A stretch of DNA of 64,000 bases from an uncultured Dokdonia sp. (GTDB lineage: Bacteria > Bacteroidota > Bacteroidia > Flavobacteriales > Flavobacteriaceae). This document shows, one piece after another, positions 4,381 through 63,795 of the stretch. Location of the stretch: positions 1 through 64,000 of the forward strand of contig NZ_CANMDS010000001.1 of NCBI RefSeq assembly GCF_947496725.1, given 5' to 3'. Within the stretch, counting starts at the first letter, position 1. Each line of letters opens with the position of its first letter. The translations under genes and the position numbers were made by a program. The notes beneath the pieces were generated by a model. That model saw nothing but the letters and a program-made list of their open reading frames with translations, was not told the DNA's origin and ran no database searches.

Positions 4381-4394
4381 TTTTCGCGAAAGCG
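4381..4394. repeat. Palindrome copy (14-bp, one arm shortened)
   Basis: TTTTCGCGAAAGCG lies between genes, with 8 bp between it and the stop codon of the leftward secreted protein gene. Confidence 0.85.
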
Positions 4395-4402
4395 TACCTA
4401 TT

Positions 4403-6166
4403 CTATTGTCGTCTTAATGCAAAATAGCCCGTAAAGATTACGTTAGACGCTGTATTTGCTTTATACCAAAACCCACTGTCTAGTAATTCTCTGCCTTGAT
4501 ATGTTCCATCCCAACCTGAACCATATGGCAAAATGGTCTTTAATCGCTTACCGTAACGGTCATAAATCTCTATACTAGTAACTGTCTCTCCATTTACCTC
4601 TACTCCCCTCACCTGCCAGGTGTCATTTATACCGTCACCATTAGGCGTGAAATATTTTGGGAAGCCTGGGTCAGGTTTTATAGTTCTACTATCTGAACCA
4701 CAACCTATGCGGTCTCTTACGAATACTTGAATATCAAGCGGATTTATATTCTGTAAAAAGGAGCTAGATTGATAAGGTCCGTTTACACCCGTACTGGAGT
4801 ATTCAAAATCTCCTTCTTCTTCTAACTCTACAATAACGGAAACAAAACTACCTTCATTATTTATAATCAAATTACTTATGACAGGAGATTGAGAAACCGT
4901 GACATTAAACAAATGTGTAGCAGTACAAGTCACAAATCCTGCTTCTATCATTGCCTCTTCATTAACCTCGAGTAGATACGTACCAGTCTCTGCTATAGCC
5001 ACATTAGGGTTTGTAGATATGAGTTGCTGTTGCCCCTCTACTATTTTGTGCCAAGATATTGTATCATAACCTTCTGAATAACTCAATTCTAATGGAGTCT
5101 CTTCATCACAAATTTCATAACTATCTTCTAGTGTGATTACGGGGTTTAAATCTACCATCTCTCCAGTAATGCCATCTGTGTATGGACCGCAGCCTAGTGT
5201 TGTAGTAAAACTAGTTTGTGTACAGTTTTGAGCTTGTCCAGCAGCATTAAAGGGTGTTATGGTCACGTAGTACGTGACACCTTCTTCAAAGTCTATTACA
5301 GGAGTTGATGTTGCTTGACCTATATTAGTATTTGCAAGTACATCATCACCTCCTGGTGTTGATCCTATTTTTATCAAATACCCCTCAACATTATCTACAG
5401 GAAACCATTCAAGCAATGGCGTGAGTGCAACTTCTATCGCTCCATCCATAGGACTAAAAAGTTGTGTACACTCTGGCACTTCTGAGGCTACTACCTCTGT
5501 TGTAAAACTGGTTTCTGCACAGGTGGAATTCTGTCCATTTTCATTATAAGGTGTTACCGTTACATAATAGGTAGTGTCTGAATCAAAATTAAAAGCTGGA
5601 GTAAATGTGAGTATATTACCTACATCTTGAGCATTAATTACATCTACTCCTCCAGGCGATGTACCTATACTTATTAAATAACCTGTGGCACGTGAAGCAT
5701 ACGCCCACGATATACTTGTGTTTACCGGTACATCTATCGCTCCATTAGACGGAAAAGCAACTTCTGTACATTCGGGTGGGAGTATATTATCTTCTGTAGT
5801 AAAAAATTGAGAATCACAGCTTACAGTACTTCCACTTGGAAAGAACCCTCTTATGGTGATATAAATCAATGTGCTTTCTGGAAAACCCTGAGGAGCCGTA
5901 AACTGAGCGTTACTTCCCGTATTGAAATTATCAAGAATATCTATCCCCCCTGGTGTAGTGCCTAAATCTACAAAGTAGCTCACTGCTCCAGGTATACTTT
6001 CAAAAAATATAGTTTCGGTGATGGAAACATCTATTGCTCCCTGCACTGGTGATGTAAGTAATGCGCAGGGGTCGTAGGTGGTATACGCTTTCGCGAAAGC
6101 GGAATTAAAAACACACAACACTATAAAAATAGTTTTTAAGTTGATATGTTTTATTAACTCCATCAT
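4403..6166 (-). CDS. Type IX-secreted protein with three FN3-like repeats and CHU_C C-terminus
   Basis: 587 residues. An N-terminal signal peptide ends in AFAKA, so the cleavage site is encoded by a copy of the iterated palindrome. Three repeats of about 100 residues follow (28-125, 126-225, 226-328). Each has GAIDV, then GYLIxIGTxPGG, YYVTVTPxN and C-x-TSFTT, an FN3-like fold. The last 90 residues are a gliding-motility-associated CHU_C (type B) domain (FTPNGDGINDTW, IYDRYGK, GWDGTYQG, GFWYK). It is probably an exported cell-surface protein recognised by the type IX secretion system. It stands alone, downstream of parC. An in-frame ATG one codon later is an equally possible start. Confidence 0.9.
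   Translation of the reverse strand: MMELIKHINLKTIFIVLCVFNSAFAKAYTTYDPCALLTSPVQGAIDVSITETIFFESIPGAVSYFVDLGTTPGGIDILDNFNTGSNAQFTAPQGFPESTLIYITIRGFFPSGSTVSCDSQFFTTEDNILPPECTEVAFPSNGAIDVPVNTSISWAYASRATGYLISIGTSPGGVDVINAQDVGNILTFTPAFNFDSDTTYYVTVTPYNENGQNSTCAETSFTTEVVASEVPECTQLFSPMDGAIEVALTPLLEWFPVDNVEGYLIKIGSTPGGDDVLANTNIGQATSTPVIDFEEGVTYYVTITPFNAAGQAQNCTQTSFTTTLGCGPYTDGITGEMVDLNPVITLEDSYEICDEETPLELSYSEGYDTISWHKIVEGQQQLISTNPNVAIAETGTYLLEVNEEAMIEAGFVTCTATHLFNVTVSQSPVISNLIINNEGSFVSVIVELEEEGDFEYSSTGVNGPYQSSSFLQNINPLDIQVFVRDRIGCGSDSRTIKPDPGFPKYFTPNGDGINDTWQVRGVEVNGETVTSIEIYDRYGKRLKTILPYGSGWDGTYQGRELLDSGFWYKANTASNVIFTGYFALRRQ
6086..6101. repeat. Palindrome copy (complete)
   Basis: CGCTTTCGCGAAAGCG lies inside the signal peptide of the CHU_C protein, encoding AFAKA. 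Confidence 0.9.
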
Positions 6167-6216
6167 AATATCACCGCACCAAGTATGTCTAGCTTAGTAA
6201 ATATACTGGAAACTAA

Positions 6217-6275
6217 CATATTTACAATAACCATTAGACATATCTAATATATGTCTAATGGTTATTGTAAATGTG
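6217..6275. repeat. 25-bp inverted repeat (long hairpin) behind parC
   Basis: Arms 6217-6241 and 6251-6275 pair over 25 positions with one mismatch (or G-U) and a 9-nt loop. It begins 2 bp after the parC stop codon. No T-run follows on the minus strand, so it is not a standard terminator. It could block 3' exonucleases or separate the transcripts of parC and the next gene. Confidence 0.75.
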
Positions 6276-6277
6276 AT

Positions 6278-8968: not shown

Positions 8969-8987
8969 TAATTGGTTGTAATAACAC

Positions 8988-9419: not shown

Positions 9420-9490
9420 TTATTTTAAGGTTCTTACTATAACTATAGACGCTTAAAAACTTATAATGGTTGCCTCAATCTTTTTTTTTA

Positions 9491-9506
9491 CGCTTTCGCG
9501 AAAGCG
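9491..9506. repeat. Palindrome copy (complete)
   Basis: CGCTTTCGCGAAAGCG lies between genes, with 8 bp between it and the parE stop codon. On the minus strand it is followed by an A-run, not a T-run, so it is not an intrinsic terminator. Confidence 0.9.
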
Positions 9507-11480: not shown

Positions 11481-11494
11481 CGCTTTCGCGAAAA
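11481..11494. repeat. Palindrome copy (14-bp, one arm shortened)
   Basis: CGCTTTCGCGAAAA lies in the divergent intergenic region between parE and the DUF6503-like gene. Confidence 0.8.
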
Positions 11495-11574
11495 ATCACA
11501 CCCTTATCATCACAATAATTTACACTTATAAATGTGTGCTATATTGTATATTGTGGGTTTAAATATCACAATTT

Positions 11575-12336
11575 ATGGCTGTATTAAAAGGTTTACAAGG
11601 AAGACTCGTACTTATTGCTATCGCTGGTGGCATCGCAGTATTATTATTTTTTTTATTTAGGACCAACACAGCTTCTACACCAGAAGTAATGACTGGAAAT
11701 ACATTATTACAAAAAATAATGAGCTCCAGTGGCGGAAAGGAAAATTACGAGAGTATAAAATCACTCTCTTTTGAGAAAGCATTCAAACTTTATGATAAAG
11801 ATAGTACTACCGAAATAAATCGTCTCGAAAAACATACCTATGATTTTACAAATGGAGCGATGAGATCCATCACCTGGAAAGATAGCCTACACACCTATAA
11901 ACTCATACAAAAGGATACTGCTATACTACAGTTTAAAGATGGAATACGTGATACATCTATAAGTAAAACTGCTCTACAAAACAAACTATACGCCGCGACT
12001 TTTGTGCTAGGCCTCCCTTACACGCTTGACACAGGTAGCTCGGTAAAAACATACTTAGGTATTACAGATTTTCAAGGTACACCAGCACACGAGCTTAAAG
12101 TGACTTTTCAAGATGGCACAGACACTTGGTATCTTTATTATGATGAGTCTACATTAGACTGGCTGGGGTACTGGGTACAAACTTCAGATCATTATAGCCT
12201 AGTTATTAATGAGGAAATGATTAACGAAAAAGGGTTTACGCTTTCGCGAAAGCGTAAAAGCTACCGCACAGACGCACAAAAAAATCGACTCTACTTGAGA
12301 GCCGATTATGAATATTCCAACTATTTAATACAATGA
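11575..12336 (+). CDS. Membrane-anchored DUF6503-like protein
   Basis: 253 residues. One N-terminal transmembrane segment (about 11-28) anchors a domain that is probably periplasmic. The pattern of a GGxxNYxxI start, then FxxxF, YDFTNGAMR, GLPYTL and TWYLYYDESTLDWLGYW resembles DUF6503 and lipoprotein-sorting-type beta sheets common in Bacteroidetes. The biochemical role is unknown. A palindrome copy near residue 223 encodes LSRKR. Its stop codon abuts that of the convergent AraC-type gene with no gap. Confidence 0.7.
   Translation: MAVLKGLQGRLVLIAIAGGIAVLLFFLFRTNTASTPEVMTGNTLLQKIMSSSGGKENYESIKSLSFEKAFKLYDKDSTTEINRLEKHTYDFTNGAMRSITWKDSLHTYKLIQKDTAILQFKDGIRDTSISKTALQNKLYAATFVLGLPYTLDTGSSVKTYLGITDFQGTPAHELKVTFQDGTDTWYLYYDESTLDWLGYWVQTSDHYSLVINEEMINEKGFTLSRKRKSYRTDAQKNRLYLRADYEYSNYLIQ
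12239..12254. repeat. Palindrome copy (complete)
   Basis: CGCTTTCGCGAAAGCG lies inside the DUF6503-like gene, encoding LSRKR. Confidence 0.9.
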
Positions 12337-16062: not shown

Positions 16063-16853
16063 TATCTTATGTGTTCACCACCATCTACTGGTATTGTTAT
16101 ACCGTTAATCCACGAGGCTTCGTCTCTTGTTAAAAGATACACTGCATTTGCCACATCATTAGGAAGTGTAAGTCGTTGGTATGGATTTCTCTTAACCGCC
16201 ATTTCTTTCATCTTATCACTACCCGGTATGAGGCGTAAGCTTTCGGTATCTGTAATGCCGGCTTGTATGCAGTTAGACGTTATGCCCAGCGGTGCAAACT
16301 CAAGGGCAATTCCGCGAGAGATACTCTCTAGGGCAGCTTTTGCCGCCGCAACTGCTGCATATTGTGGCCACGCACGACTACTACCCTCACTCGTAAACGC
16401 AATGGCTCTTGCAGATGGGGTAAATAATTCTGCTTTCGCGAAAGCGGAAACCCAATCATAATAACTCACTGCCATTGCATCCAGCGTGCCCTTGAAATCT
16501 TCATTAGAAAGTGTATTCCCGCCTTCTGCATCATACAACGGTTTTAGATTACCGCGCGCAATACTATGTAAGATTAATTTAATGACACCTTTACCAAGTT
16601 TTGCTAAAATATCATCTACAGTCTCTTGCCTTTTCTTAGGGTTAAGTGCATCTGTGTTATAAGATATAATCTCACAGCCAGAGACCTCCATCTCCCGCAC
16701 AGCATCTTCAAAAGCTGCGACAACGCTACGTCTTGACCTGTGTATGATAATAATATTCATACCCTCGTGGGCAAGCTTCTTTGCTGTGGCAAGGCCTAAT
16801 CCAGCACTTCCACCCAGTATAACAGCATATTTATTTTTATAGCTTTGACTCAT
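16062..16853 (-). CDS. FabL-like enoyl-ACP reductase (SDR family)
   Basis: 263 residues. The nucleotide-binding motif GGSAGLG (14-20) is that of classical SDRs. The catalytic pair is Tyr165-x6-Lys172 (QYAAVAAAK), the spacing seen in enoyl reductases FabI and FabL instead of YxxxK. HSIAR at 96-100 recalls the FabI HSIA motif, and the C-terminal region TDTESLRL to IPVDGG follows FabL. It is probably an NAD(P)H-dependent enoyl-ACP reductase. A palindrome copy encodes SAFAKAE at 136-142. A ketoreductase role cannot be excluded, as none is otherwise encoded in the operon. Confidence 0.78.
   Translation of the reverse strand: MSQSYKNKYAVILGGSAGLGLATAKKLAHEGMNIIIIHRSRRSVVAAFEDAVREMEVSGCEIISYNTDALNPKKRQETVDDILAKLGKGVIKLILHSIARGNLKPLYDAEGGNTLSNEDFKGTLDAMAVSYYDWVSAFAKAELFTPSARAIAFTSEGSSRAWPQYAAVAAAKAALESISRGIALEFAPLGITSNCIQAGITDTESLRLIPGSDKMKEMAVKRNPYQRLTLPNDVANAVYLLTRDEASWINGITIPVDGGEHIR
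16432..16446. repeat. Palindrome copy (15 of 16 bp)
   Basis: GCTTTCGCGAAAGCG lies inside the FabL-like reductase gene, encoding AFAKA. Confidence 0.9.
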
Positions 16854-18616: not shown

Positions 18617-19734
18617 TACAAAAGGTTTTTGCCGTGAGTAGATGTTATAATCTTAGTGAGTAATCTAGGTGATTGCTGTAAAACTCTCACACCTACTTTA
18701 GTGATAGTATCGCTTTGCAAGCCTCGCTGTATGATAGCACCGTTGCGCATTCTGGTTGTAAATGCAGCCTTCCACTGCTTGGTATAATTTTGCTCTAGAA
18801 GCATTCTGCTTTTTGGATATGACAGATACTCTAATAAACACTCACTAGCAATCTTAGCACTATGTATCGCCATCGCCATACCATTACCACATAACGGGTG
18901 TATAAGACCTGCACTATCACCTATCATAAGTATGTGATTCTCCACAGTCTGCTTGTTTTGAAAGGATATCTGACTTATGGTGAGTGGTTTATTAAACAAG
19001 GGTTTCGCTTTCGCGAAAAATGACTTCAGCTCTTTATTCTTTTCTAATACTTCAACTCGATAGGTATCTAAATCTTTATATTTTTTAAATGATGCAACAT
19101 CTGCCAGATAACAAACATTTACAGCATCTGTCTCTACTTTAGATAGACCACAATACCCGCCTTTAAAGTTATGCAAGGCAACTTCATCTTCTGGAAAATC
19201 TGCTTGATAATGTGCCTTCACACCGAGCCAAGGAGAACGGGTGGAAATAAATTTTCGCGAAAGCGTAATATCTAGCGTACTTCGCTTTCCGTAGGCCCCT
19301 ATTACGTGTGGTGTTCTATAACTTTTACCAGCTATGGCAACTTCAAAAATATGATCATCATACGTTATGTCTAATACGCTTGCTCTCTCAACGGTGACGC
19401 CATTTTCAATAAGCTTATTGTACATCATATAATCTAGTTCATACCTACTTATACCAAAACCTCCTAGTGGTAAATCTACGCGAAGAACCTTACCGCTTAA
19501 ACCTGAGAAAGAAAATTTTGTAATCTCCTTTGCTCCGTGAGCGATGGGATCTATACCTAAACGTTTGAGATATGGCAATACCTCATTTGAGACATACTCA
19601 CCACAGACCTTATGTTTTGGGTACTCATTTTTTTCTATAAGAAGAATGCTATGAGCAGATTGGGATAAATGGAGAGCTGCGGTTAGTCCCGCAAGGCCAC
19701 CTCCTACAATAATGATGTCATAATCTTGTCTCAC
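18616..19734 (-). CDS. FAD-dependent oxidoreductase (geranylgeranyl reductase/hydroxylase-like)
   Basis: 372 residues. The N-terminal Rossmann motif is GGGLAGLTAALHLS. KHKVCGEYVS is typical of the geranylgeranyl-reductase and flavin hydroxylase superfamily, and the second FAD motif is MIGDSAGLIHPLCGNGMAMA. It probably hydroxylates or oxidises the polyketide product. It is the first gene of the leftward operon. Two shortened palindrome copies lie in it, encoding SFFAKAK and TLSRK. The promoter must lie in the short gap upstream, which also contains the terminator of the preceding gene. Confidence 0.86.
   Translation of the reverse strand: MRQDYDIIIVGGGLAGLTAALHLSQSAHSILLIEKNEYPKHKVCGEYVSNEVLPYLKRLGIDPIAHGAKEITKFSFSGLSGKVLRVDLPLGGFGISRYELDYMMYNKLIENGVTVERASVLDITYDDHIFEVAIAGKSYRTPHVIGAYGKRSTLDITLSRKFISTRSPWLGVKAHYQADFPEDEVALHNFKGGYCGLSKVETDAVNVCYLADVASFKKYKDLDTYRVEVLEKNKELKSFFAKAKPLFNKPLTISQISFQNKQTVENHILMIGDSAGLIHPLCGNGMAMAIHSAKIASECLLEYLSYPKSRMLLEQNYTKQWKAAFTTRMRNGAIIQRGLQSDTITKVGVRVLQQSPRLLTKIITSTHGKNLL
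19006..19019. repeat. Palindrome copy (14-bp, one arm shortened)
   Basis: CGCTTTCGCGAAAA lies inside the FAD oxidoreductase gene, encoding FFAKA. Confidence 0.8.
19252..19265. repeat. Palindrome copy (14-bp, one arm shortened)
   Basis: TTTTCGCGAAAGCG lies inside the FAD oxidoreductase gene, encoding TLSRK, 246 bp from the previous copy and with the opposite arm shortened. Confidence 0.8.
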
Positions 19735-21492: not shown

Positions 21493-23499
21493 TTAATAGT
21501 CTATGAGCTCTTGAAGCTCACTTTCTAGACGCTCTAAAGGTAAGTATTGCTGCTCTAGATTTGCATCAAAAGGAATAGGAGTATCTAAGCTTGTCACACG
21601 TTTTACCGGTGCGTCTAGCTTCTCAAAACAAGATTCCATTATAAGGGCCGAAATATCTGACATAATAGACCCAAAGCCAGAATCTTCTGTAAGTAATAAT
21701 GCCTTTCCCGTTTTACAAACAGATGCGATGATGCTCTCCTTATCTAGTGGTTGTAGTGTTCTCAAGTCTATAAGATCTACAGATAGCTCTGTCCTTTTAT
21801 TTAATAAGTCAAGCGCCCAGTGTACCCCTGCTCCGTAGGTGACGATGGTAAGTTGTGACCCTTCTCGTACTAGTGCAGCCTTACCTAACGGGATTGTGTA
21901 ATAATCTGTAGGCACTTCTTGTCTTATACTTCTGTATAGCTTTTTATGCTCAAAGAACAGCACGGGATTTGGATCTTCTATAGCCGTTGCAAGTAATCCC
22001 TTTGCATCTGCCGGAAAAGCAGGAAAAACCACCTTAAGACCTGGTGTATGTGTAAACCAGGCTTCATTAGTTTGAGAGTGAAAAGGTCCAGCAGCCACGC
22101 CTGCACCACAAGGCATACGTACCACCACATCTGCCGGTTGTGACCATCTGTAATGTGACTTAGCCAGGTAGTTTACAATAGGATTAAAACCCGAGGTTGC
22201 AAAATCAGAAAACTGCATTTCCATCATTGCTTTTTTTCCATTTATAGCAAGACCCATTGCTGTCTCAACAATGGCGCTCTCACAAATAGGTGTATTGCGC
22301 ACACGTTCTTTACCAAACTGCGCTACAAAGCCTTCGGTTATTTTAAAAACACCACCATACTCTGCCACATCTTGCCCCATTATCACAAGGTCATCATACT
22401 TCTCCATAGACTGACGCAAGCCTTGAGAGATAGCATCTATTAGTCTTAGCTCTTCTGTAGTGTTACTGGGTACGCTTTCGCGAAAGCGGAAAGGTGCATA
22501 CACATCTTCCATCTCTGTGTTGAGATCTGGAGTGATTTGCTCCTCTTGATACGACTTTTCTAGGTGTTCATTTATTTCATTCTTAATCTCAACGGCATAG
22601 CGTTCTTTTACCGTAGCCGAAAGTATACCTTCTTGCTCCAGATAGGCCTCATAATTACTAAGCGGATCCTTCTTTGCCCACATATCCATAAGCTCCTGAG
22701 GTACGTATTTTGTACCACTAGCTTCCTCGTGACCGCGCATTCTAAAGGTTTTAAACTCTATAAGTACTGGTCGCGGGTTATTACGTATATCCTCTGTTAT
22801 TTTTGAGATTTGTGTGTAGACTTCAAGTATGTTATTACCATCTATAATGTGTGACTCCATCCCGTAGCCCTGCGCTCTGTGAGCAAGATGCTCACAATTA
22901 TACTGCTCGCTAGTAGGTGTTGAGAGTCCGTAGCCGTTATTCTCTATGCAAAAAAGTACTGGCAGCTGCCATACAGACGCTACATTGAGCGCCTCGTGAA
23001 AATCTCCTTCACTCGTACCACCTTCTCCTGTAAAAACGGCCGTTACGGCTTTTTCTTCTCTTAATTTATGAGCAAGAGCAATCCCATCTGCCACACCAAG
23101 TTGTGGACCCAGATGTGATATCATTCCCACAATATTGTATTCTTGAGTACCAAAATGAAAACTACGATCTCTTCCTTTTGTAAAACCACTCATTTTACCC
23201 TGCCATTGTGTAAACAATCTATACAACGGTATCTCTCTCGTGGTAAACACGCCTAGATTACGGTGCATAGGCAAGATATACTCTTCATCGCGCATTGCAG
23301 ATGTAACTCCTACAGAAATGGCTTCTTGACCTATACCAGAAAACCATTTTGAGATTTTTCCTTGTCTAAGCAAGATGAGCATTTTCTCCTCAATCATACG
23401 AGGTTTGAGCATCGCTCTGTACAATTGCAAGAGTACTTTCTCATCAAGAGTACCTCGATTATAATTAAATGAGAGTGTGGTTTTTGTATGCGTAGCCAT
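21493..23499 (-). CDS. Fused E1 alpha-beta subunit of a 2-oxoacid dehydrogenase complex
   Basis: 668 residues from the ATG at 23499 (an upstream ATG at 23532 is less likely). The N-terminal half is E1-alpha, with the thiamine diphosphate motif GEGGTSEGD to ENNGYG. The C-terminal half is E1-beta (MGQDVAEYGGVF, TPICESAIVETAMGLA, MQFSDFA). It decarboxylates a 2-oxoacid, probably branched-chain, and passes the acyl group to a lipoyl E2 encoded elsewhere. A palindrome copy encodes FRFRES in the linker between the halves. The gene appears monocistronic. Confidence 0.92.
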   Translation of the reverse strand: MATHTKTTLSFNYNRGTLDEKVLLQLYRAMLKPRMIEEKMLILLRQGKISKWFSGIGQEAISVGVTSAMRDEEYILPMHRNLGVFTTREIPLYRLFTQWQGKMSGFTKGRDRSFHFGTQEYNIVGMISHLGPQLGVADGIALAHKLREEKAVTAVFTGEGGTSEGDFHEALNVASVWQLPVLFCIENNGYGLSTPTSEQYNCEHLAHRAQGYGMESHIIDGNNILEVYTQISKITEDIRNNPRPVLIEFKTFRMRGHEEASGTKYVPQELMDMWAKKDPLSNYEAYLEQEGILSATVKERYAVEIKNEINEHLEKSYQEEQITPDLNTEMEDVYAPFRFRESVPSNTTEELRLIDAISQGLRQSMEKYDDLVIMGQDVAEYGGVFKITEGFVAQFGKERVRNTPICESAIVETAMGLAINGKKAMMEMQFSDFATSGFNPIVNYLAKSHYRWSQPADVVVRMPCGAGVAAGPFHSQTNEAWFTHTPGLKVVFPAFPADAKGLLATAIEDPNPVLFFEHKKLYRSIRQEVPTDYYTIPLGKAALVREGSQLTIVTYGAGVHWALDLLNKRTELSVDLIDLRTLQPLDKESIIASVCKTGKALLLTEDSGFGSIMSDISALIMESCFEKLDAPVKRVTSLDTPIPFDANLEQQYLPLERLESELQELIDY
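22473..22488. repeat. Palindrome copy (complete)
   Basis: CGCTTTCGCGAAAGCG lies at the E1 alpha/beta junction, encoding RFRES. Confidence 0.9.
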
Positions 23500-23598
23500 T
23501 AGGTTGTGTTTGATATAACCAAATGTAATCATTATTGCCTAACGATTACCTGCAGTAAAATCTTGATGTTATATACTGACTAATAAGCACCTCTATTC

Positions 23599-24465: not shown

Positions 24466-24481
24466 CGCTTTCGCGAAAGCG
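24466..24481. repeat. Palindrome copy (complete)
   Basis: CGCTTTCGCGAAAGCG lies in the divergent intergenic region between the NmrA-like and dioxygenase genes. Confidence 0.9.
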
Positions 24482-26831: not shown

Positions 26832-27707
26832 ATGGCCATAGCCTCTTCAGAACTTATACTTAACCCAGACGGGAGTATCTATCATCTTAATATTAAACCG
26901 CAAGATATTGCTACAACAATTATCACCGTAGGTGATCCAGATCGTGTAGATACGGTTACAAAATACTTTGATAGTGTACGATTTACAACACAAAAACGTG
27001 AGTTTAAAACAAGCACAGGAACTTATAAAGGAAAAGAGATTACCGTCATATCAACTGGTATAGGTACAGATAATATTGACATTGTCCTTAATGAACTAGA
27101 TGCGCTTGTAAATATAGATCTAGAGACTAGAGCTGTAAAAGATACGCACACAACACTTGATATTATACGCATTGGGACCAGTGGGGCTATACAAAAAGAC
27201 ATCCCTGTAGACTCATTTTTAATAAGTCGTTACGCAATGGGACTTGATGCGCTGTTACATTTTTACGATAGTAAGCACATACAGCACTTTGAGGTACAAG
27301 AAGCGTTTATAAAACATATGGACTGGGCTCAAGAAAAGAGTGCTCCTTACATAGTGTCTTGTGATGAAACGCTAGCCTCAAAATTTAATGAGCCAGATTT
27401 TCACCAAGGTTTTACTGCTACAAACATAGGTTTTTATGCGCCTCAAGGTAGAATGCTTAGACTTAAAACGAGCGACGTTGAGATGAATGATAAATTGGGT
27501 TCTTTTAGCTTTCGCGAAAGCGGACTCAACCTGCGTGTCACAAATCTAGAAATGGAAACTTCTGGCATCTATGGCCTTGCAAAATTATTAGGGCATAGAG
27601 CAATTTCTTTAAACTGTATCCTCGCAAATAGAGTAAACAAAACCTTTAGCACAACACCTACAGAGCAAACAGAAAAACTTATACAAGAAGTTTTAGAAAG
27701 GCTTTAA
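26832..27707 (+). CDS. Nucleoside phosphorylase (uridine phosphorylase-like)
   Basis: 291 residues from the ATG at 26832. The N-terminal VGDPDRVDTVTKYFD and the ITVISTGIGTDNIDIVLNEL and IRIGTSGAIQ motifs define the PNP/UDP family. It cleaves a nucleoside with phosphate to base and sugar 1-phosphate, and NLEMETSGIYGLAKLLGHRA carries the ribose-binding METxx motif. An upstream in-frame start at 26769 lies inside the preceding gene and was rejected. A palindrome copy encodes FRES at about residues 228-231. Confidence 0.9.
   Translation: MAIASSELILNPDGSIYHLNIKPQDIATTIITVGDPDRVDTVTKYFDSVRFTTQKREFKTSTGTYKGKEITVISTGIGTDNIDIVLNELDALVNIDLETRAVKDTHTTLDIIRIGTSGAIQKDIPVDSFLISRYAMGLDALLHFYDSKHIQHFEVQEAFIKHMDWAQEKSAPYIVSCDETLASKFNEPDFHQGFTATNIGFYAPQGRMLRLKTSDVEMNDKLGSFSFRESGLNLRVTNLEMETSGIYGLAKLLGHRAISLNCILANRVNKTFSTTPTEQTEKLIQEVLERL
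27508..27522. repeat. Palindrome copy (15 of 16 bp)
   Basis: GCTTTCGCGAAAGCG lies inside the nucleoside phosphorylase gene, encoding SFRES. Confidence 0.9.
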
Positions 27708-31731: not shown

Positions 31732-31747
31732 CGCTTTCGCGAAAGCG
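31732..31747. repeat. Palindrome copy (complete)
   Basis: CGCTTTCGCGAAAGCG ends 8 bp before the mutS2 start codon, in the ribosome-binding region. Confidence 0.9.
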
Positions 31748-34359: not shown

Positions 34360-34440
34360 AAAAAATCATTATTAAAAAGTAAGCGTTATTTATATCATTA
34401 AATAGCGCTTTTTTAATTTCTAAGACTCATATCGAGTACA

Positions 34441-34454
34441 TTTTCGCGAAAGCG
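34441..34454. repeat. Palindrome copy (14-bp, one arm shortened)
   Basis: TTTTCGCGAAAGCG lies in the gap between the DCC and secreted basic protein genes. Confidence 0.85.
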
Positions 34455-36724: not shown

Positions 36725-38008
36725 TTATAGTTGCGCTATTAAATTACTCAGTTGTGCTGTGAGCTCTCTCCTATGATATTTGGCTACTTCGGTTGTATTA
36801 CTTTCATACTTGTAGTCACCTGTAAATAACGCTTCAATCACTGATTTCAAGTTTTTCTCTTGACTGTAATCTACAAAACTACCTGTTGCTGTTTTTTCAA
36901 TAATAGCTCCGATGTCTGCACCCTTAGGACCTATAGCGACTATAGGTCGCTGTGCGCTTAGGTATTCAAAGATTTTTCCAGCTATGATGCCTTTTGTCTT
37001 TTCGGCGTTAATTTCTATGAGGAGCAAGGCATTTGCTTGTTCTTGTAATCGCTGTGCTTCTTGGTGGCTTACATAACCTACAAGGTTCAATTGTGACTCT
37101 AGACCGGCTGCCGTTATTGCGTCAATGATTTCTTGACTTACTTTCCCTACAAGCTGTATTTCTAGCGCTTTAGAAAAGGCTGGTAACTCATCACATAATG
37201 CTCTCAACACCTTCCACAACAACTGCGGATTGCGGTCTGAGAGTAAAGAACCTATGTGAGATAATACAAACCGCTCTGTAGGTTGATGCGGAGTGATTAC
37301 TCTATCGTCAAACCCATTTGTGATAACGGTAATAGGTCTTTTGGTAATTGCTTGAAATTCTCTTTTTGTTCCTGGGCTGGTTACAATTATATGATCTGCA
37401 GTGGTGAGAACTTGTTTTTCTAACTGCTTGTGGCGCGCTTTTGTTTTGGCGGTCATTAGGAGTTTATCGTGATACCCAATAGTCGTCCACGGATCTCTAA
37501 AATCGGCTAACCAATTAAGGTTGGGTTTCCAGTTTTTGAGTTGGTTGCCTATGAGATGTAAGCTGTGCGGTGGTCCTGTAGTGATGATTTTTTCAATATC
37601 GTTTTCTTCGACGTACTTTTTCAAGTACTCCACAGAAGGTGCTACCCACCCTACTCTTGCGTCTGGCACAAAGAAGTTTCCACGTACGTAGAGCATCGCT
37701 TTTTGTAACAAGCTCTGCTTTCCTTCATTTGGTAAAATGCCCGATGAGATGGTTTTAGTTTGCTTTCGCGAAAGCGTACTCGCCAACCCATACGGCTCTT
37801 TAATAGGTTGTTTAATCACAGTCACCTTACTTGAAACCTCAGCAACCAAAGAATCATCTACGATAGGATAACTAGGATTTTCTGGAACGTAAACAATAGG
37901 TTCTATGCTAAATTCTGGTAGGTACTTTGTAAACTTGAGCCATCGTTGCACACCGGGACCACCAGCGGGTGGCCAATAATATGCGATGATGAGTACCTTG
38001 TTATTCAT
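36725..38008 (-). CDS. Glycosyltransferase family 4
   Basis: 427 residues with GT-B fold features. The N-terminus reads AYYWPPAGGPGVQRWLKF, the C-terminal domain has LVGYVSHQEAQRLQEQANALLL, and GKIFEYLSAQRPIVAIGP holds the nucleotide-sugar binding site. It would transfer a sugar to a lipid- or glycan-linked acceptor on the cytoplasmic side. It is coupled to the YfhO gene by a TAATG overlap and lies 9 bp before the flippase. A palindrome copy encodes LSRKQ. Confidence 0.9.
   Translation of the reverse strand: MNNKVLIIAYYWPPAGGPGVQRWLKFTKYLPEFSIEPIVYVPENPSYPIVDDSLVAEVSSKVTVIKQPIKEPYGLASTLSRKQTKTISSGILPNEGKQSLLQKAMLYVRGNFFVPDARVGWVAPSVEYLKKYVEENDIEKIITTGPPHSLHLIGNQLKNWKPNLNWLADFRDPWTTIGYHDKLLMTAKTKARHKQLEKQVLTTADHIIVTSPGTKREFQAITKRPITVITNGFDDRVITPHQPTERFVLSHIGSLLSDRNPQLLWKVLRALCDELPAFSKALEIQLVGKVSQEIIDAITAAGLESQLNLVGYVSHQEAQRLQEQANALLLIEINAEKTKGIIAGKIFEYLSAQRPIVAIGPKGADIGAIIEKTATGSFVDYSQEKNLKSVIEALFTGDYKYESNTTEVAKYHRRELTAQLSNLIAQL
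37762..37776. repeat. Palindrome copy (15 of 16 bp)
   Basis: GCTTTCGCGAAAGCG lies inside the glycosyltransferase gene, encoding LSRK. Confidence 0.9.
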
Positions 38009-40586: not shown

Positions 40587-41969
40587 TTATTTCAAAGCTG
40601 CTACTAGTTCATCTATGCTTACAGTCTCTTGTGAGCCTTCTGCCATATTTTTGAGCGTATATTGTTTTGCTTCCATCTCTTCTTTTCCAGCTAGTACTAA
40701 ATAAGGAATATTGCGACGGTTTGCATAGGTCATTTGCTTTTTCATTTGCTTATTGCTCGTCACGGCATCTGGATATAACTCGGCTGAGATTCCGGATTGG
40801 CGTAGCTTGCTTATCGCTTGCATTGCATAACTTGCTTCTTGATCTCCAAAGTTTACAAAAAACACTTTAACGCCTTCTGTCGCCTCTTCTGGAAATAAGC
40901 CTAACTCTTCTATCACAAGGTAAATACGATCTAGACCAAAAGAGATCCCTACACCACTCATATCTTTAAGTCCAAAAATACCTGTAAGATCTGCATAGCG
41001 ACCACCGCCACCTATGCTTCCCATCTGTACACCTTCTGGAGCGCTTACTTCAAAAATAGCTCCCGTGTAATAGTTGAGTCCGCGGGCTAGGGTTACGTCT
41101 AGTTGTAGTGTTGCGGTTTGTAAACCTAAGTTTTCTATAGCATCATTGATAAAAAGCAGTTCGTTAATTCCTTCCATTCCTGTCTCAGAATCTGCAAGTA
41201 GAGTTTTAAGCGTCCCTAGCTGATCACCAAACGTTCCAGATAATGTAAACAACGGTGCTACCTTATCTATCGCCTCTTGAGTAATGCCTTTGGCAAGCAT
41301 TTCTTTAGTCACGCCCTCTTCTCCTATTTTATCAAGCTTATCTAGCGCTACGGTAAAATCTATGAGTTTATCACTCGCGCCTATCACCTCTGCAATACCA
41401 GAAAGTACCTTGCGGTTGTTCATTTTGATAATCACTCCTTCTAGCTTTAATGCGCTAAAAACAGCATCATATAACTGTACAAACTCTACTTCTTGCCATA
41501 GAGAATCACTTCCTACCACATCTGCATCACACTGATAAAACTCGCGAAAACGTCCTTTCTGTGGGCGGTCTGCTCTCCATACGGGTTGCATCTGGAAACG
41601 CTTAAATGGGAATACAATATCATTCTGATGTTGTACTACGTATCTCGCAAAAGGTACCGTAAGATCGTAACGAAGTGCTTTCTCTGAGATTTGTGGTGTG
41701 AGTGCTGTTGAGTCCGCTTTCGCGAAAGCGTCATCCTTCACCTTGCGTAAATAGTCACCACTATTAAGAATTTTAAATATCAAGCGATCACCTTCTTCTC
41801 CGTATTTACCCATCAAGGTGCTGCTGTTTTCAAAACTAGGCGTCTCGATAGGCTGAAAACCAAAACGCTGAAACTGCGTGCGTATGGTGTTCATAATATA
41901 GCTGCGCTTTGCAACTTCTTCTGGTGAAAAATCTCTGGTTCCTTTAGGTATTGAAGGTTTTGTACTCAT
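40587..41969 (-). CDS. hisS: Histidyl-tRNA synthetase
   Basis: 460 residues. It is a class II aminoacyl-tRNA synthetase that charges tRNA-His. The N-terminus [11 protein letters not shown], motif 2 ([26 protein letters not shown]), the histidine signature [13 protein letters not shown] and motif 3 ([11 protein letters not shown]) are present. The C-terminal anticodon-binding domain ends in a lysine. A palindrome copy encodes DAFAKAD in a loop after YLRKV, a region I recall as variable in Bacteroidetes. Confidence 0.95.
41715..41730. repeat. Palindrome copy (complete)
   Basis: CGCTTTCGCGAAAGCG lies inside hisS, encoding AFAKA. Confidence 0.9.
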
Positions 41970-42044
41970 ATGTTACAGTCGTATTCTTTAAGGTACTTCC
42001 TATCAAAATAATTAAAAGGAAAGACTACCTGTGTTCTTTTTATA

Positions 42045-42058
42045 CTTTCGCGAAAGCG
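42045..42058. repeat. Palindrome copy (14-bp)
   Basis: CTTTCGCGAAAGCG lies in the divergent gap between hisS and the ABC permease gene, 75 bp before the hisS start codon. Confidence 0.85.
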
Positions 42059-45022: not shown

Positions 45023-45038
45023 CGCTTTCGCGAAAGCG
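45023..45038. repeat. Palindrome copy (complete)
   Basis: CGCTTTCGCGAAAGCG lies 7 bp beyond the symporter stop codon and 22 bp from the end of the convergent CoA-binding gene. Confidence 0.9.
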
Positions 45039-49153: not shown

Positions 49154-49952
49154 ACAGCTCTTTCTTATTACCTTTTTCTTTATTTCGCTTTGCGCGGAAG
49201 CAACCGTCGTACAACAAAATGAAGATGAGACAACCGCCGAAGAAATAGCTATAGAAGAAATAAATAGACCAGAGCAAGTTTATAATGACCCTAGAGGCGT
49301 CATAATCTATGATGAAGAAAAAGTTACATCCTTTACCATAGATGAAGCTACACTAAGGGACTATCAAAACGACGATGAGTTTAATTACAAAGAAGCCATT
49401 CCAGAAGATACCTGGTGGACTCGCTTTAAACAAAAACTCAATGATATTTATAGCAGCTTTATAAGATGGCTCACTGGTGGTGATGAAGCATCTGGAGTAT
49501 GGAGGTTTGTGGTAGAGATACTTCCCTACTTACTTATGGCAGGGTTTCTAGCATTATTTGTCTATATATTTATGAAGATAGATAGTGGTTCTCTATTAAT
49601 GGAAAATGTAAAAGCTCCCGAAGCCTTAATCTCAGATGATGAAGAACTCATACAGCGCCAAGACCTAAATGAGCTTATAGACGAAGCCATAAAAGATGGT
49701 AATTACAGACTCGCCGTACGATTTTATTACTTATTTATCCTTCAGCAATTGAGTACAAAAGACCTTATAGACTGGCAAGTTCAAAAGACTAACCACGACT
49801 ATATCTTTGAGATTCAAAACACGCAGCTTCAGGGTGATTTTAGAAAAGTCACAGATATTTACGATTATATCTGGTACGGTAATTTTGAGGTAGATAAGAC
49901 CGCTTTCGCGAAAGCGGAAACCCATTTTAAATCTATAAAAAATCAGATATGA
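49146..49952 (+). CDS. DUF4129 domain protein
   Basis: 268 residues. A signal peptide, an acidic periplasmic part and one transmembrane helix (about 122-143) precede a cytoplasmic DUF4129 domain (DGNYRLAVRFYYLFILQQL, IDWQVQKTNHDY, YDYIWYGNFEV). DUF4129 proteins accompany MoxR and DUF58 proteins. A palindrome copy encodes TAFAKAE near the C-terminus. It is coupled to the next gene by ATGA. Confidence 0.88.
   Translation: MHRQLFLITFFFISLCAEATVVQQNEDETTAEEIAIEEINRPEQVYNDPRGVIIYDEEKVTSFTIDEATLRDYQNDDEFNYKEAIPEDTWWTRFKQKLNDIYSSFIRWLTGGDEASGVWRFVVEILPYLLMAGFLALFVYIFMKIDSGSLLMENVKAPEALISDDEELIQRQDLNELIDEAIKDGNYRLAVRFYYLFILQQLSTKDLIDWQVQKTNHDYIFEIQNTQLQGDFRKVTDIYDYIWYGNFEVDKTAFAKAETHFKSIKNQI
49901..49916. 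repeat. Palindrome copy (complete)
   Basis: CGCTTTCGCGAAAGCG lies inside the DUF4129 gene, encoding AFAKA. Confidence 0.9.
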
Positions 49953-52214: not shown

Positions 52215-53555
52215 TTGGCCATTATTAGATTCATAAAGGGATTATTTTTACACCAGCGCTTATTTTATGGGCTGGCAGTACTAGCTTTGCTATACCTTCT
52301 CTCCTACTGGTTTAACGGCCTTTTTGGAATTACAAACATTTTATTATTGGTGTTTTTGCTTGTGGTATTTATAGATACCCTAGTCCTCTTTCGCGGAAGC
52401 GGAAAAATTAAAGCAACACGTGCGCTTCCAGAAAAGTTTTCTAATAGTGACGTTAATGAACTTAAGGTCACACTAGAAAATAAATATCCATTTTCCGTAT
52501 CTCTTGATATTATAGATGAGATCCCAGTGCAGTTTCAAAAGCGAGACTTTAGTAAGCATATTAAGATACCAGCCAGGGAGTCTAGTTCATTTAGCTATAC
52601 ATTACGACCTACAGAGCGTGGAGAGTACGTTTTTGGACATCTTAATTTATACGCTAGCACAAAACTAAAATTAGTAAGAAGACGTTACCGTTTCGAGAAA
52701 GACCAGATGGTAAAAGTATATCCCTCTTTTATCCAGATGAAGAAATATGCCTTTCTCGCACTAGACAATAGACTCACCTTACACGGTATGAAAAAAATAC
52801 GCCGTATAGGTCACACTATGGAGTTTGAGCAGATTAAAGATTACGTACCTGGTGATGACGCTCGTACTATAAACTGGAAGGCAACTGCAAAAAGAGGTAG
52901 CCTTATGGTCAATCAGTTTCAAGATGAAAAGTCACAACCCGTTTATGCATTAATAGACGCCAGCCGGGTGATGAAAATGCCTTTTAAAGGACTTACGCTA
53001 CTAGATTATGCCATAAACAGTACGCTTGCGTTTTCTAACATTGCGCTTAAAAAGAAGGACAAGGTAGGTATGCTCACCTTTGCCGAAGAGGTGAAAAATC
53101 ACCTCCCTGCTAGTAGCAAGAAAACCCATCTACAAACCATACTAGAGGTGCTTTATAATATAAACACTAAGTTTTTAGATAGTGACTATGGTGGTTTATA
53201 CAATCAAGTAAAACGTAAGATCACACAGCGTAGTTTATTATTACTGTACACTAATTTTGAACATATTACTGCGCTAGAGCGACAGTTACCTTATTTAAAA
53301 GCGCTTTCGCGAAAGCATATTCTCGTCGTTATTTTCTTTCAGAATACAGAGTTAGATCAACTTATTACAAAACCCGCAACCTCCTTACCTGATGTCTATC
53401 ATAAGACCATTGCTCAAAAAGCAGATTATGATAAAAAAGTAATGGTAGCACGACTAGAACAATATGGAATACAAACTATATTAACAAAACCAGATGATCT
53501 CACCGTAAATACGATTAATAAATATCTAGAGATTAAAGCACGAGGTATATTATAA
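52215..53555 (+). CDS. DUF58 domain protein
   Basis: 446 residues starting at a TTG at 52215, 2 bp after the MoxR stop; no ATG is close by. Two N-terminal transmembrane helices (about 18-58) precede the DUF58 signature FEQIKDYVPGDDARTINW, continuing KATAKRGSLMV. A von Willebrand-A-like region contains YALIDASRVMKM. It is the probable client of MoxR. A complete-arm palindrome copy encodes ALSRKH, and a 14/16 match encodes LFRGSG. Confidence 0.9.
   Translation: MAIIRFIKGLFLHQRLFYGLAVLALLYLLSYWFNGLFGITNILLLVFLLVVFIDTLVLFRGSGKIKATRALPEKFSNSDVNELKVTLENKYPFSVSLDIIDEIPVQFQKRDFSKHIKIPARESSSFSYTLRPTERGEYVFGHLNLYASTKLKLVRRRYRFEKDQMVKVYPSFIQMKKYAFLALDNRLTLHGMKKIRRIGHTMEFEQIKDYVPGDDARTINWKATAKRGSLMVNQFQDEKSQPVYALIDASRVMKMPFKGLTLLDYAINSTLAFSNIALKKKDKVGMLTFAEEVKNHLPASSKKTHLQTILEVLYNINTKFLDSDYGGLYNQVKRKITQRSLLLLYTNFEHITALERQLPYLKALSRKHILVVIFFQNTELDQLITKPATSLPDVYHKTIAQKADYDKKVMVARLEQYGIQTILTKPDDLTVNTINKYLEIKARGIL
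52386..52401. repeat. Degenerate palindrome copy (14 of 16 matches)
   Basis: CTCTTTCGCGGAAGCG differs from the consensus at two positions and is no longer fully symmetric. It lies inside the DUF58 gene in the FRES register. Confidence 0.5.
53302..53316. repeat. Palindrome copy (15 of 16 bp)
   Basis: CGCTTTCGCGAAAGC lies inside the DUF58 gene, encoding LSRK. Confidence 0.9.
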
Positions 53556-54984: not shown

Positions 54985-55000
54985 CGCTTTCGCGAAAGCG
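54985..55000. repeat. Palindrome copy (complete)
   Basis: CGCTTTCGCGAAAGCG lies 8 bp beyond the purB stop codon and before a separate intrinsic terminator. Confidence 0.9.
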
Positions 55001-58212: not shown

Positions 58213-58713
58213 TTATGCTTCTATTTCTTTTAAAATGTCTGTAAGTATTTGATCTGTACTTTGGGCAACAGATACTTTTACGCCGTATGACGGAACTTCA
58301 AGTGTGTCATATTGTGATTGTAATAATGAGGGATTAAAAAAGTGATTTTGCCTTGATGCAAGTCGCTTACTTATAGTCTCAAAACTCGCATCAAGATAGA
58401 CAAAGTTTTGCTTTGCTTTCGCGAAAGCGTTATCACTATACAACCGCTCCCTATACACCTCCTTGAGAGCAGAGCACGCTAGAACTGCACCTTCTGCCTG
58501 TGACCAAGTATTTATTTTAATTGCTAGCACATCCAGCCACGGCCACCTATCACTATCTTGTAAAGGTTTTCCAGAAGCCATTTTATCAATATTTGCTTGT
58601 GGGTGAAAATCGTCGGCATCATAAAATGGTAGGTCTAGAGTCGCCGCAAGCTTTTTACCAATGGTGGTTTTACCACACCCAGAAACGCCCATAACTATAT
58701 ATACTACACTCAT
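58213..58713 (-). CDS. gntK: Gluconokinase
   Basis: 166 residues. The P-loop is GVSGCGKTTIGK, and FYDADDFHPQANIDKMASGKPLQDSDRWPWL is the gluconokinase signature. It phosphorylates gluconate to 6-phosphogluconate, the next step after import by GntP. A palindrome copy encodes NAFAKAK. Compared from memory with E. coli GntK, this loop is a few residues longer here, which would fit an insertion. TAATG overlaps the DUF72 stop. Confidence 0.93.
   Translation of the reverse strand: MSVVYIVMGVSGCGKTTIGKKLAATLDLPFYDADDFHPQANIDKMASGKPLQDSDRWPWLDVLAIKINTWSQAEGAVLACSALKEVYRERLYSDNAFAKAKQNFVYLDASFETISKRLASRQNHFFNPSLLQSQYDTLEVPSYGVKVSVAQSTDQILTDILKEIEA
58415..58429. repeat. Palindrome copy (15 of 16 bp)
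   Basis: GCTTTCGCGAAAGCG lies inside gntK, encoding AFAKA. Confidence 0.9.
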
Positions 58714-59615
58714 TAAAAAAGGGTATTTGTCGTACTACTTGCACTTTGTGGTACGCGTAGATTAATCCCTAATGCAGGGTTGAGTCGCTCTATAAAATAG
58801 GCAGATAGTAAGGTGGACTCTTGCTCGATGTTTTGATGTATAAAAAAATGAATTTTACGTAAGCCAAGACTCACCCAGTACGTAAGCCGCTCTACCCAGG
58901 CATCTAGTCGTGCATAATCACTAGGATGGTTTGCCCCTACATAACGTATAAAGGCTTCTCCATTTGTTAATCTCATATGCATAATATCACGCCTTCCAGC
59001 AGTGTCTACCAGAACATTTGCCATATTATGCTCTTCTAGAAGGGAATATAATCGCTCTGCAGTATCTGGGTTATTAAACCAGTCTGTATGCCTAAACTCT
59101 AACGCGATGGGAAGCGCTTCTGGCCAGTGGTTTACAAAATTATCTACACGGTCAAAATCTTTGGGTTGAAAGTTATTGTGCATCTGTAAGAACACGGTAC
59201 CTAGCTTTTCTTTGAGCATCGCCACGTGATCTACATACTCTGGGATAAAATCTTGAGCATCTATAAGTCTTTTACGGTGACTTATCATATTTGTGATTTT
59301 CGGGAAGAATTTAAATCCCTCTGGCGCTTTATTATACCACTTTTCAAATTGCTCTTTTGGGAACAGCCTGTAAAATGTAGCGTTGAGCTCTATACTATTA
59401 AACTGCTTTGCATAATACGAAAGTTCGTCTTTAGTTCCTCTGGGGTAAAAACCTTTGAGCTCTGCTTTATTCCATTTTGCACAACCTACATAGACTTCTA
59501 GATTTTTGTTTTGCGCTTTCGCGAAAGCGTCCTCAATCACACCTCTAGTTGCAGGGTGATCTGGAGGTAAGGTGAAATCAATTAACTCTGGTTGCTCTAC
59601 TGCGCCAAATTTCAT
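58713..59615 (-). CDS. DUF72 (YecE-like) TIM-barrel protein
   Basis: 300 residues. YVGCAKWNKAELKGFYPRG, FNSIELNATFYR and FKFFPKITNMISH are the DUF72 pattern, and LEFRHTDWFN and MRLTNGEAFIRYVG occur later. The fold is a TIM barrel of unknown activity. It heads the leftward gluconate operon, coupled to gntK by TAATG. A palindrome copy encodes DAFAKAQ near residues 28-34. Confidence 0.9.
   Translation of the reverse strand: MKFGAVEQPELIDFTLPPDHPATRGVIEDAFAKAQNKNLEVYVGCAKWNKAELKGFYPRGTKDELSYYAKQFNSIELNATFYRLFPKEQFEKWYNKAPEGFKFFPKITNMISHRKRLIDAQDFIPEYVDHVAMLKEKLGTVFLQMHNNFQPKDFDRVDNFVNHWPEALPIALEFRHTDWFNNPDTAERLYSLLEEHNMANVLVDTAGRRDIMHMRLTNGEAFIRYVGANHPSDYARLDAWVERLTYWVSLGLRKIHFFIHQNIEQESTLLSAYFIERLNPALGINLRVPQSASSTTNTLF
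59514..59529. repeat. Palindrome copy (complete)
   Basis: CGCTTTCGCGAAAGCG lies inside the DUF72 gene, encoding AFAKA. Confidence 0.9.
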
Positions 59616-60547: not shown

Positions 60548-60563
60548 AAAACACATATAACAT

Positions 60564-60592
60564 AATCCCCAAGACTACTTGGGGATTTTTTT
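60564..60592 (+). terminator. Terminator of the LolA-like gene
   Basis: AATCCCCAAG and CTTGGGGATT form a stem with a 5-nt loop (ACTA region), followed by TTTTT. Confidence 0.88.
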
Positions 60593-60632
60593 AGCGCATA
60601 TTTTAAGAAAATATCAATCCAAACCAACCCAT

Positions 60633-63600: not shown

Positions 63601-63719
63601 CAGACTTTGAAAAGATTAAATCAAAACGCCTAGTGAAGTTTGAAAAATACTTAGAAAAGCAAGAAATGAAGCCTATTACCTTTGATACTAAAGAAGTCTT
63701 TTTGGATAGCAAAGAGTAA
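60633..63719 (+). CDS. Secreted BNR/VPS10-like beta-propeller protein
   Basis: 1028 residues from the ATG at 60633; an 18-residue upstream extension overlaps the terminator and was rejected. The signal peptide ends in PTQAQE. At least seven Asp-box (BNR) motifs occur, such as TKDGGSNW, TTDGGKTW, SEDGGANW and TVDGGLNW, typical of sortilin/VPS10-like double propellers (about 30-740). A beta domain and a helical C-terminal part follow (about 800-1028). No CHU_C or other type IX tail was seen. It may be a periplasmic or outer-membrane glycan- or peptide-binding protein. Confidence 0.88.
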   Translation: MKTKHILLGLCIAALSIPTQAQEIALKGKELFGDITARQIGPALMSGRIIDMEVHPTNAQIIYTGTAGGGVWKSQDGGASYAPIFDDQIQSIGQVAIDPTDPDQTVWVGTGEIWTRNSVSVGDGLYRTKDGGSNWQKIPGFDNSERISGIEIDPNDGNTVYVGVMGALWSDSDDRGVYKTTDGGKTWEKVLYINNTTGVADLIMDPSNSNILYASMWEFRRTAWDFNSGGVNSGLHKSTDGGKTWKKIHNGFPEGKLGRIGVAVSPSEPSIVYAVIESEQEKDKGLYRSEDGGANWKRTNGDFSLTVRPFYFSRIVVDPKNPDVVVKGGLSGSISRDGGNTFKPLGNMHSDIHDIVFDINNSDMMHVGTDGGVYRSWNGGTTMEIVSNLPLSQFYHISVDNAEPYNIYGGLQDNGSWYGPSSSPGGIEARDWTRVGVGDGFRVLPHPTKDILYSEMQGADNVWRYDMKRNYTKNVKPLPAKGSADLRFNWNPPMATSTHQPDRFYMGSQFLHVSEDMGDTWKVISPDLTTNDPKKQEKNSGGLSADNSGAETHTTIFTIAESPINEKVIWVGTDDGNVQITRDGGANWTNVVANVPGLPANTWVYHIEASVHGAGSAYAVFEGHARGDMKPYVYKTTDYGKSWKSITTDDITMFARNIQEDYENENLLFLGAENGLYITVDGGLNWSKFTNNFPATAVHFLDLQKQTNDLVAGTHGRGVIIIDDISILRDIKPEILDKNVHFFDTKPGTMVEEGGFGGGSTELEFVGPNPGNALKIKYYLKKRHTFGKMTLAIQDMEGNEITTLAPGKSKGINIVSWNYASKSPKLAAAKTFAFGGFTPVRVQAGMYKAVLKKGKDTYETTFEVKNDPKSFITAPERKEQYKTSKQLFDIQEDLAYMVYQTNLMVNSAQDAIEANAKATKVAQPLIDDLNELKNTLVVTTGDNYVGTAPPQLREKLSTLYSDVASNYEAPSAAQKENINLLLERFNTAKADFEKIKSKRLVKFEKYLEKQEMKPITFDTKEVFLDSKE

Positions 63720-63734
63720 ACAATAATCACTCTT

Positions 63735-63773
63735 AAAAAATCCCGATGTGCAACTGCATATCGGGATTTTTTA
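63735..63773. terminator. Bidirectional terminator
   Basis: AAAAAATCCCGAT and ATCGGGATTTTTT form a 13-bp stem with a 12-nt loop. A and T runs on both sides suit both the propeller gene and the convergent aldehyde dehydrogenase gene. Confidence 0.9.
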
Positions 63774-63779
63774 TTTTTA

Positions 63780-63795
63780 CGCTTTCGCGAAAGCG
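63780..63795. repeat. Palindrome copy (complete)
   Basis: CGCTTTCGCGAAAGCG lies 5 bp beyond the aldehyde dehydrogenase stop codon, next to but separate from the terminator. Confidence 0.9.

Follow-up and report, generated by a model that had tools for sequence, protein, structure and literature searches.

A highly iterated, evenly spaced 16-bp palindrome in Dokdonia and related Flavobacteriaceae: a possible DNA-uptake signal also carried by phages

Repetitive extragenic palindromic (REP) sequences with their REP-associated tyrosine transposases (RAYT) form many short palindromes per genome, and in Rickettsia palindromic inserts lie within genes, while the sites of Noc, parS and matS are long palindromes bound by dimers. 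The HIP1 element of cyanobacteria is described as an 8-bp, GC-rich word usually present at 1000–2000 copies per Mb (PMC4390886). Here we describe a 16-bp palindrome, CGCTTTCGCGAAAGCG, with the core TTTCGCGAAA, in a 64,000-nucleotide stretch (the window; positions 1 to 64,000 of contig NZ_CANMDS010000001.1, assembly GCF_947496725.1) of an uncultured Dokdonia sp. We propose, with a probability of roughly 0.45, that this palindrome works like a DNA-uptake (self-recognition) signal kept by recombination.

The core occurred 26 times in the window, whereas 100 dinucleotide shuffles contained it 0.09 times on average and never more than once. A scan allowing up to three mismatches to the 16-mer returned 28 sites, comprising 14 perfect copies, five with one mismatch, seven in which the core was intact but one arm altered, and two degenerate relatives (Table 1). 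The initial annotation, made from the letters of the window, had given the same 26 copies, exactly the same division plus degenerate relatives, and a chance expectation for the core well below one, all of which these counts bear out. The whole 3.29-Mb genome (G000) contained 711 perfect 16-mers and no reversed-palindrome control, placing the element far above background and showing that it is not confined to this locus. In 384 contiguous kb (the window plus 16 further stretches), the basis of the anatomy, spacing and placement counts below, there were 126 cores, 95 of them perfect 16-mers, or approximately 330 cores per Mb; extrapolation gives approximately 1,080 sites per genome, roughly one per 3 kb.

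The best-kept part was GCTTTCGCGAAAGC (114 copies), outside which the next pair was mostly C and G, followed by a looser tA and Ta. At least one of the flanking C/G bases was present at every core, and the one-mismatch 16-mers deviated at the outermost base in 18 of 20 cases. TCGCGA occurred 148 times, 126 of them within cores; the 22 copies outside elements compared with 22–32 expected (Markov order 1–3, trained with elements included), and the word was therefore not depleted. The window held three such outside copies (27836, 41542 and 42275) rather than the two noticed initially.

The element itself was as first described, but the pattern proved longer than noted, with flank composition biased to approximately 32 nt from the centre. 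On both strands, the 25 nt or so 3' of the palindrome were poor in G and rich in A and C: at positions 11–26 from the centre the G frequency was 0.02–0.11 against a background of 0.19, with A and C raised, and the bias faded by approximately 32 nt. This polarity held within genes and between genes, and the G share of 3' flanks inside genes was 0.096 on the sense and 0.099 on the antisense side, with no dependence on gene direction. The flank bias was also found in congener G008, in two stretches of genus g11 (nine sites) and at 31 distinct phage sites, and was weaker in G207 (19 sites). The 8-base half-sites outside elements were near background (CGAAAGCG, 4 vs 3.3 expected; GCGAAAGC, 4 vs 5.6), and longer half-words were slightly above expectation (GCGAAAGCG, 3 vs 0.9; CGCGAAAGCG, 2 vs 0.15). 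The site is thus strongly two-sided, both halves being needed, as judged by enrichment.

Spacing analysis revealed a coefficient of variation (CV) of 0.50, compared with 0.99 for random placement, in agreement with the fairly even spread seen at first; when the null preserved the noncoding preference, the lowest CV of 1000 placements was 0.80. The corresponding CV in G008 was 0.59. Gaps below 1 kb numbered 8 of 125 (35 expected) and gaps above 9 kb were absent (6.3 expected); the deficit of short gaps reads as though a second nearby site adds nothing. For the complete 3,294-kb chromosome of congener G001, the listed matches to a longer form of the element (85 of the 93 forward ones) began at 26 kb and ended at 2,995 kb; the largest gap among them was 138 kb, and no regional enrichment or depletion was apparent.

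Sites outside genes numbered 57–66 of 126, depending on the choice of gene starts, in 13–16% of the DNA, a 3.4-fold enrichment, and about half of the sites lay within genes. The intergenic count depends on the gene models, since longer starts make sites such as 6086, 36084 and 37761 not clearly intergenic. The commonest coding frame read AFAKA (36 of 60 genic sites under the first gene models), which by eye was often placed near the ends of signal peptides, and 15 of 60 genic sites lay within 120 nt of the gene start, compared with 6.8 expected. No marked preference for promoters or terminators was observed in the 384 kb.

Comparison with congeners showed that turnover of the sites is mainly by substitution. 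In 13 comparisons (11 with sites), restricted to alignable DNA, no core differed by a gap of four or more bases, the largest departure being a gap of 2 bases at a single G008 site; sites whose surroundings failed to align, including the hisS site in G003, G004, G015 and G016, were left out. In DNA aligned with G008 (74% identity), the full ten-base core was retained at 16 of 22 sites of the window genome (9 of 15 genic and 7 of 7 intergenic), whereas control 10-mers were retained in 11 of 269 cases close to the sites and in 590 of 8646 cases in all (4–7%). The sites therefore change roughly 8–10 times more slowly than their surroundings. As a separate observation, HisS of G003, G004, G015 and G016 carries approximately 90–120 extra residues at about codons 77–86, where the window genome has a palindrome.

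The initial annotation had suggested counting the element in related Flavobacteriaceae. All 18 genomes searched from the genus, which we infer to be Dokdonia, were positive, with 138–711 copies each. An even draw of 299 genomes from the family, in which this genus was represented twice, gave 38 genomes with any copy. Five had at least 100 copies, namely both members of this genus, a pair from genus g11 (495 and 579 copies) and a single genome from genus g191 (153 copies), and the remaining 33 positive genomes had 1–13 copies each. Across 198 phylum genomes (19 of this family, the window's own included), seven were positive, and the highest count besides the window's own was 2. High copy number is thus confined to three sampled genera. 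A search of the open literature, partly among the matches listed and with most subscription papers outside its scope, returned no earlier report of the palindrome. The core string occurs in ten papers; in one of them (PMC8034619, available text) it is part of words that are missing from the human genome, and the others are unrelated judging by their titles. The available parts of PMC4390886 and PMC5217627 contain no mention of Bacteroid-, Flavobact-, Dokdonia or Krokinobacter.

In 80 named hisS loci, five cores were found in four loci, two of these cores in a Dokdonia contig. Four low-copy loci (L088, L089, L090 and L091; three genomes of three other genera) had copies at shared positions in a region 77–90% identical between genera, which in L088 encodes an AcrB-type efflux pump (resistance-nodulation-division, RND) together with an outer-membrane efflux protein. 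This region looks like DNA transferred horizontally from bearers, with the motif as a mark and this direction the presumed one. Besides A/T-only and N-run matches, the iterated words in the named loci (scanned for palindromes from 8 kb and for k-mers from 15 kb upwards) were TTCCGGAA in L164 and GCAATTGC in L154 and L188, and inspection found no longer dyad around either. L188, L195 and L203 (Polaribacter, Flavobacteriaceae and Flavobacterium) each had one non-palindromic 10-mer with 7 copies in approximately 21 kb. In Flavobacterium saliperosum (L164), TTCCGGAA occurred nine times in 21 kb, and TTTCCGGAAA 55 times genome-wide compared with 4 for the control. The HisS of L204, a contig titled as a Bifidobacterium breve metagenome-assembled genome, was 66% identical to the flavobacterial query, and the bin is probably mislabelled or contaminated.

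Phages also carried the palindrome. In IMG/VR, the 16-mer was present in 41 stretches on 30 contigs, compared with 14 stretches of one copy each for the reversed control. We chose 18 of the 30 contigs, mostly those apparently multi-copy, several of which are near-identical within groups and not independent; they contained 64 cores in 414 kb, 17 with at least two cores and one with a single core. Seven contigs with at least four cores showed even spacing (mean CV of 0.42 vs 0.73 random). PHROGs matches included a portal protein, major head protein, tape measure and integrase (group 1), terminase, portal, head protease, tail sheath and transposase, suggesting a Mu-like phage (group 2), and a primase with a 45% relation to Flavobacterium phages (group 3), so that the bearing contigs are real phages. 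In phage relatives at 65–71% identity, two distinct sites were kept and about four substituted, and three named relatives (Flavobacterium and Cellulophaga phages) had no core. Judging from the motif alone, the hosts of these phages would be bearers of the motif; a search of 32 genomes with one phage portal protein gave nothing at E 1e-20, with no positive to calibrate it. The 34-nt consensus had no match in plasmids and, in named phages, two 17-nt matches, both in mycobacteriophages. As a yardstick, Haemophilus influenzae phage HP1 held 17 host uptake words in 32 kb, compared with 3 for the reversed control; because HP1 likewise carries the uptake words of its host, phage carriage is not evidence against an uptake signal.

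By analogy, the overall pattern resembles that of uptake words. A dimeric DNA receptor, part of a transformation route of the Riemerella kind that may do without pili, would recognise GCTTTCGCGAAAGC in DNA from outside the cell; site-bearing fragments would be imported and then recombined, and biased exchange could restore and spread intact sites until nearly every few kb has one. Uptake would then be the selecting process, Dokdonia would be transformable and such a receptor would exist. Riemerella columbina, of the same family, is reported to be constitutively transformable with a preference for its own DNA (PMC7965970), and transformation of R. anatipestifer reportedly requires eight essential genes, including those for ComEC, DprA, ComF and RecA, four of the eight being unlike known machinery (PMC8459023). 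The frequency of imperfect copies also bears on the proposal. One-mismatch cores exceeded element-masked Markov nulls in G000 (22 vs 5.6–11.8) and G008 (29 vs 10.6–14.2), and exceeded base composition alone in G000 (22 vs 13.5), whereas two-mismatch forms fell below expectation under a null of base composition alone (103 vs 183). Decaying copies were few but present, G008 having seven 14-mers with a single core change. Since an excess of one-mismatch forms has been reported for uptake words (PMC1939737), this modest excess removes one argument against the uptake reading.

Several points nevertheless weigh against this reading. Relative to the number of perfect cores (126 in G000 and 125 in G008), the excess of one-mismatch forms is small, and we know of no uptake word that is a perfect palindrome of such length. 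The known uptake words, in the available text of PMC1939737, are not palindromes. The PF00437 pilus/type II secretion ATPase was absent in seven of nine bearers, including this genome, and present in one of 11 comparison genomes; the Riemerella route presumably lacks pili. The own-DNA preference of Riemerella may, according to its authors, stem from restriction-modification or other systems (PMC7965970, available text), Flavobacterium johnsoniae was, in the part of the source available, not competent in the same test as Riemerella, and competence in Dokdonia was not reported among the literature matches listed. Because of the missing PF00437 in seven of nine bearers and the palindromic form, we do not file the element as a member of the uptake signal sequences (USS) or DNA uptake sequences (DUS).

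The strongest alternative, possible though on balance doubtful, is that the palindrome is the site of a homodimeric, sequence-specific chromosome protein acting in looping, compaction, segregation or repair on all DNA resident in the cell, prophages among it. Sites at roughly one per 3 kb would serve to anchor or load this protein, whose footprint of approximately 60 bp would take in the biased flanks. The perfect dyad with half-sites near background outside elements points to a dimer on duplex DNA, and the even spacing, the symmetry of the flanks in and between genes, and the spread of sites along G001 are all consistent with such a protein. However, no candidate binder emerged, no regional enrichment or depletion appeared among the G001 matches listed, and high copy number was found in just three sampled genera. 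All nine bearers examined had exactly one ParB_N match, which rules out a Noc-like ParB paralogue.

A HIP1-like element made and kept by a DNA methyltransferase reading its centre, as proposed for cyanobacteria, appears improbable. The initial annotation had noted a resemblance to HIP1 with a different sequence and length, and this holds: the element is an iterated palindrome deviating mostly at its outermost base, and HIP1 copies too vary chiefly at their ends (PMC4390886, sections 2.6 and 3.1). However, the C5 methylase domain PF00145 was absent in six of nine bearers, including this genome (adenine and N4 methylases were not searched for), the site is 14–16 bp with biased flanks, and TCGCGA elsewhere is at background; we therefore disfavour the C5-methylase model. 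PF00145 was present in seven of 11 comparison genomes, one of which (G038) has two 16-mers. Separately, a single long open frame of G005 (G005:C1:2994546-2996633) contains two adjoining C5 methylase domains. Among the mechanisms first suggested, a methylase or restriction target is thus weakened by the missing C5 domain and by the undiminished TCGCGA elsewhere, and the ParB/Noc-type version of a segregation protein falls away, while an uptake signal and a dimeric chromosome protein both stay in play.

A Chi-like recombination site or single-strand hairpin signal seems similarly improbable. G/T-rich DNA is favoured by RecA, and each strand is G/T-rich 5' of the site and could form a hairpin, predicted at -4.3 kcal/mol. 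The flank bias and the slight excess of the longest half-words fit such a signal; so does hairpin formation by the inner 14 nt themselves, predicted at 84% of 114 sites compared with 62% with shuffled flanks. This folding difference arises in part because the two flanks are complementary in composition, and symmetric variants that keep the dyad (up to four changes) were nearly absent, with one in G000 and one in G008. A signal read on one strand would need one side only, yet the shorter half-sites were not enriched, and we disfavour the one-sided reading on the 8-mers at background, the two longer half-words being slightly above it. The 3' half on both strands, GCGAAAGC, is a sequence we take to be an unusually stable single-stranded DNA mini-hairpin, a hairpin that the folding program does not predict.

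A bidirectional transcription terminator is highly unlikely: 11 of 56 intergenic sites lay between convergent genes, compared with approximately 6 expected by length, but about half of the sites are genic, the flanks lack a T tract and show no link to gene direction, and, with no clear dependence on gene ends either, we reject a terminator or promoter element. Least credible is a mobile palindromic repeat, REP/RAYT-like or inserted in genes as in Rickettsia, which would suit the high copy number, the presence inside genes and the hisS site lying in a segment of different length in four congeners, but which we disfavour because alignable congener DNA showed no clean insertion and the longer hisS copies, whose segment did not align, are those without the palindrome.

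Table 1. Palindrome sites in the window (coordinates of the 16-mer; CDS, coding sequence; G numbers, congeners)
Coordinates	Strand	Form	Location	Remarks
228 and 52386	.	degenerate relatives		scan with up to 3 mismatches
4379..4394	.	core + right arm only	intergenic	
6086..6101	.	perfect	within long open reading frame 4403-6166 (-)	reads AFAKA near N-terminus
9491..9506	.	perfect	intergenic	
11481..11496	.	core + left arm only	intergenic	
12239..12254	.	perfect	within CDS 11575-12336	
16431..16446	.	one mismatch (outer base)	CDS	
19006..19021	.	core + left arm only	CDS	
19250..19265	.	core + right arm only	CDS	
22473..22488	.	perfect	within CDS 21493-23532	
24466..24481	.	perfect	divergent intergenic	
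27507..27522	.	one mismatch (outer base)	CDS	
31171..31186	.	perfect	within CDS	
31732..31747	.	perfect	intergenic or at gene start, by start codon chosen	
34439..34454	.	core + right arm only	intergenic	G004 with one core substitution
36084..36099	.	perfect		core in 5/6 aligned congeners (G005: one substitution)
37761..37776	.	one mismatch (outer base)		core in 6/6 aligned congeners
39499..39514	.	core + right arm only	CDS	core in 5/6 aligned congeners
41715..41730	.	perfect	within hisS (40587-41969, -)	core in G001, G005, G007, G008; longer segment instead in G003, G004, G015, G016
42043..42058	.	core + right arm	divergent intergenic	core in 2/2 aligned congeners (G001, G008)
45023..45038	.	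perfect	convergent intergenic	core in 4/4 aligned congeners
49901..49916	.	perfect	within CDS 49146-49952	core in 4/5 aligned congeners, substituted in G015
53302..53317	.	one mismatch (outer base)	CDS	
54985..55000	.	perfect	convergent intergenic	adjoins adenylosuccinate-lyase-like CDS
58414..58429	.	one mismatch (outer base)	CDS	
59514..59529	.	perfect	within DUF72 CDS 58713-59615	
63780..63795	.	perfect	convergent intergenic	

The palindrome is an unusually sharp genome-wide DNA word for a marine bacterial genus. It probably belongs to a self-recognition system of three Flavobacteriaceae genera, common to hosts and phages, being either the first palindromic uptake signal, served by a pilus-free machine, or a new kind of chromosome-maintenance site, regular in spacing and bound by a dimeric protein of its own. 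If it is an uptake signal, Bacteroidota would have evolved sequence-specific uptake around a palindromic word, perhaps without pili, and the palindrome would be a marker of gene flow out of Dokdonia-group bacteria; if it is a chromosome site, it marks a new protein with roughly a thousand targets.

Compared with known systems, the element differs from REP/RAYT repeats in having no insertion signature, in lying often within genes and in its even spacing. It has far more copies than Noc sites, parS or matS, with no regional exclusion among the G001 matches listed and no ParB paralogue. Like HIP1, it is a highly iterated palindrome deviating mostly at its ends; unlike HIP1, it is 14–16 bp long, occurs at approximately 330 cores per Mb, has biased flanks and lacks a C5 methylase in six of nine bearers. 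From the USS of Pasteurellaceae and the DUS of Neisseriaceae it differs as a perfect 14–16 bp palindrome at about one per 3 kb, with the pilus ATPase missing in most bearers examined. It shares with them the character of a short, genome-wide iterated word massively overrepresented in the host lineage, with a noncoding preference, coding copies as well, no dependence on gene direction and, to a modest extent, an excess of one-mismatch forms, and it is carried by phages, as uptake words are in the temperate phage HP1.

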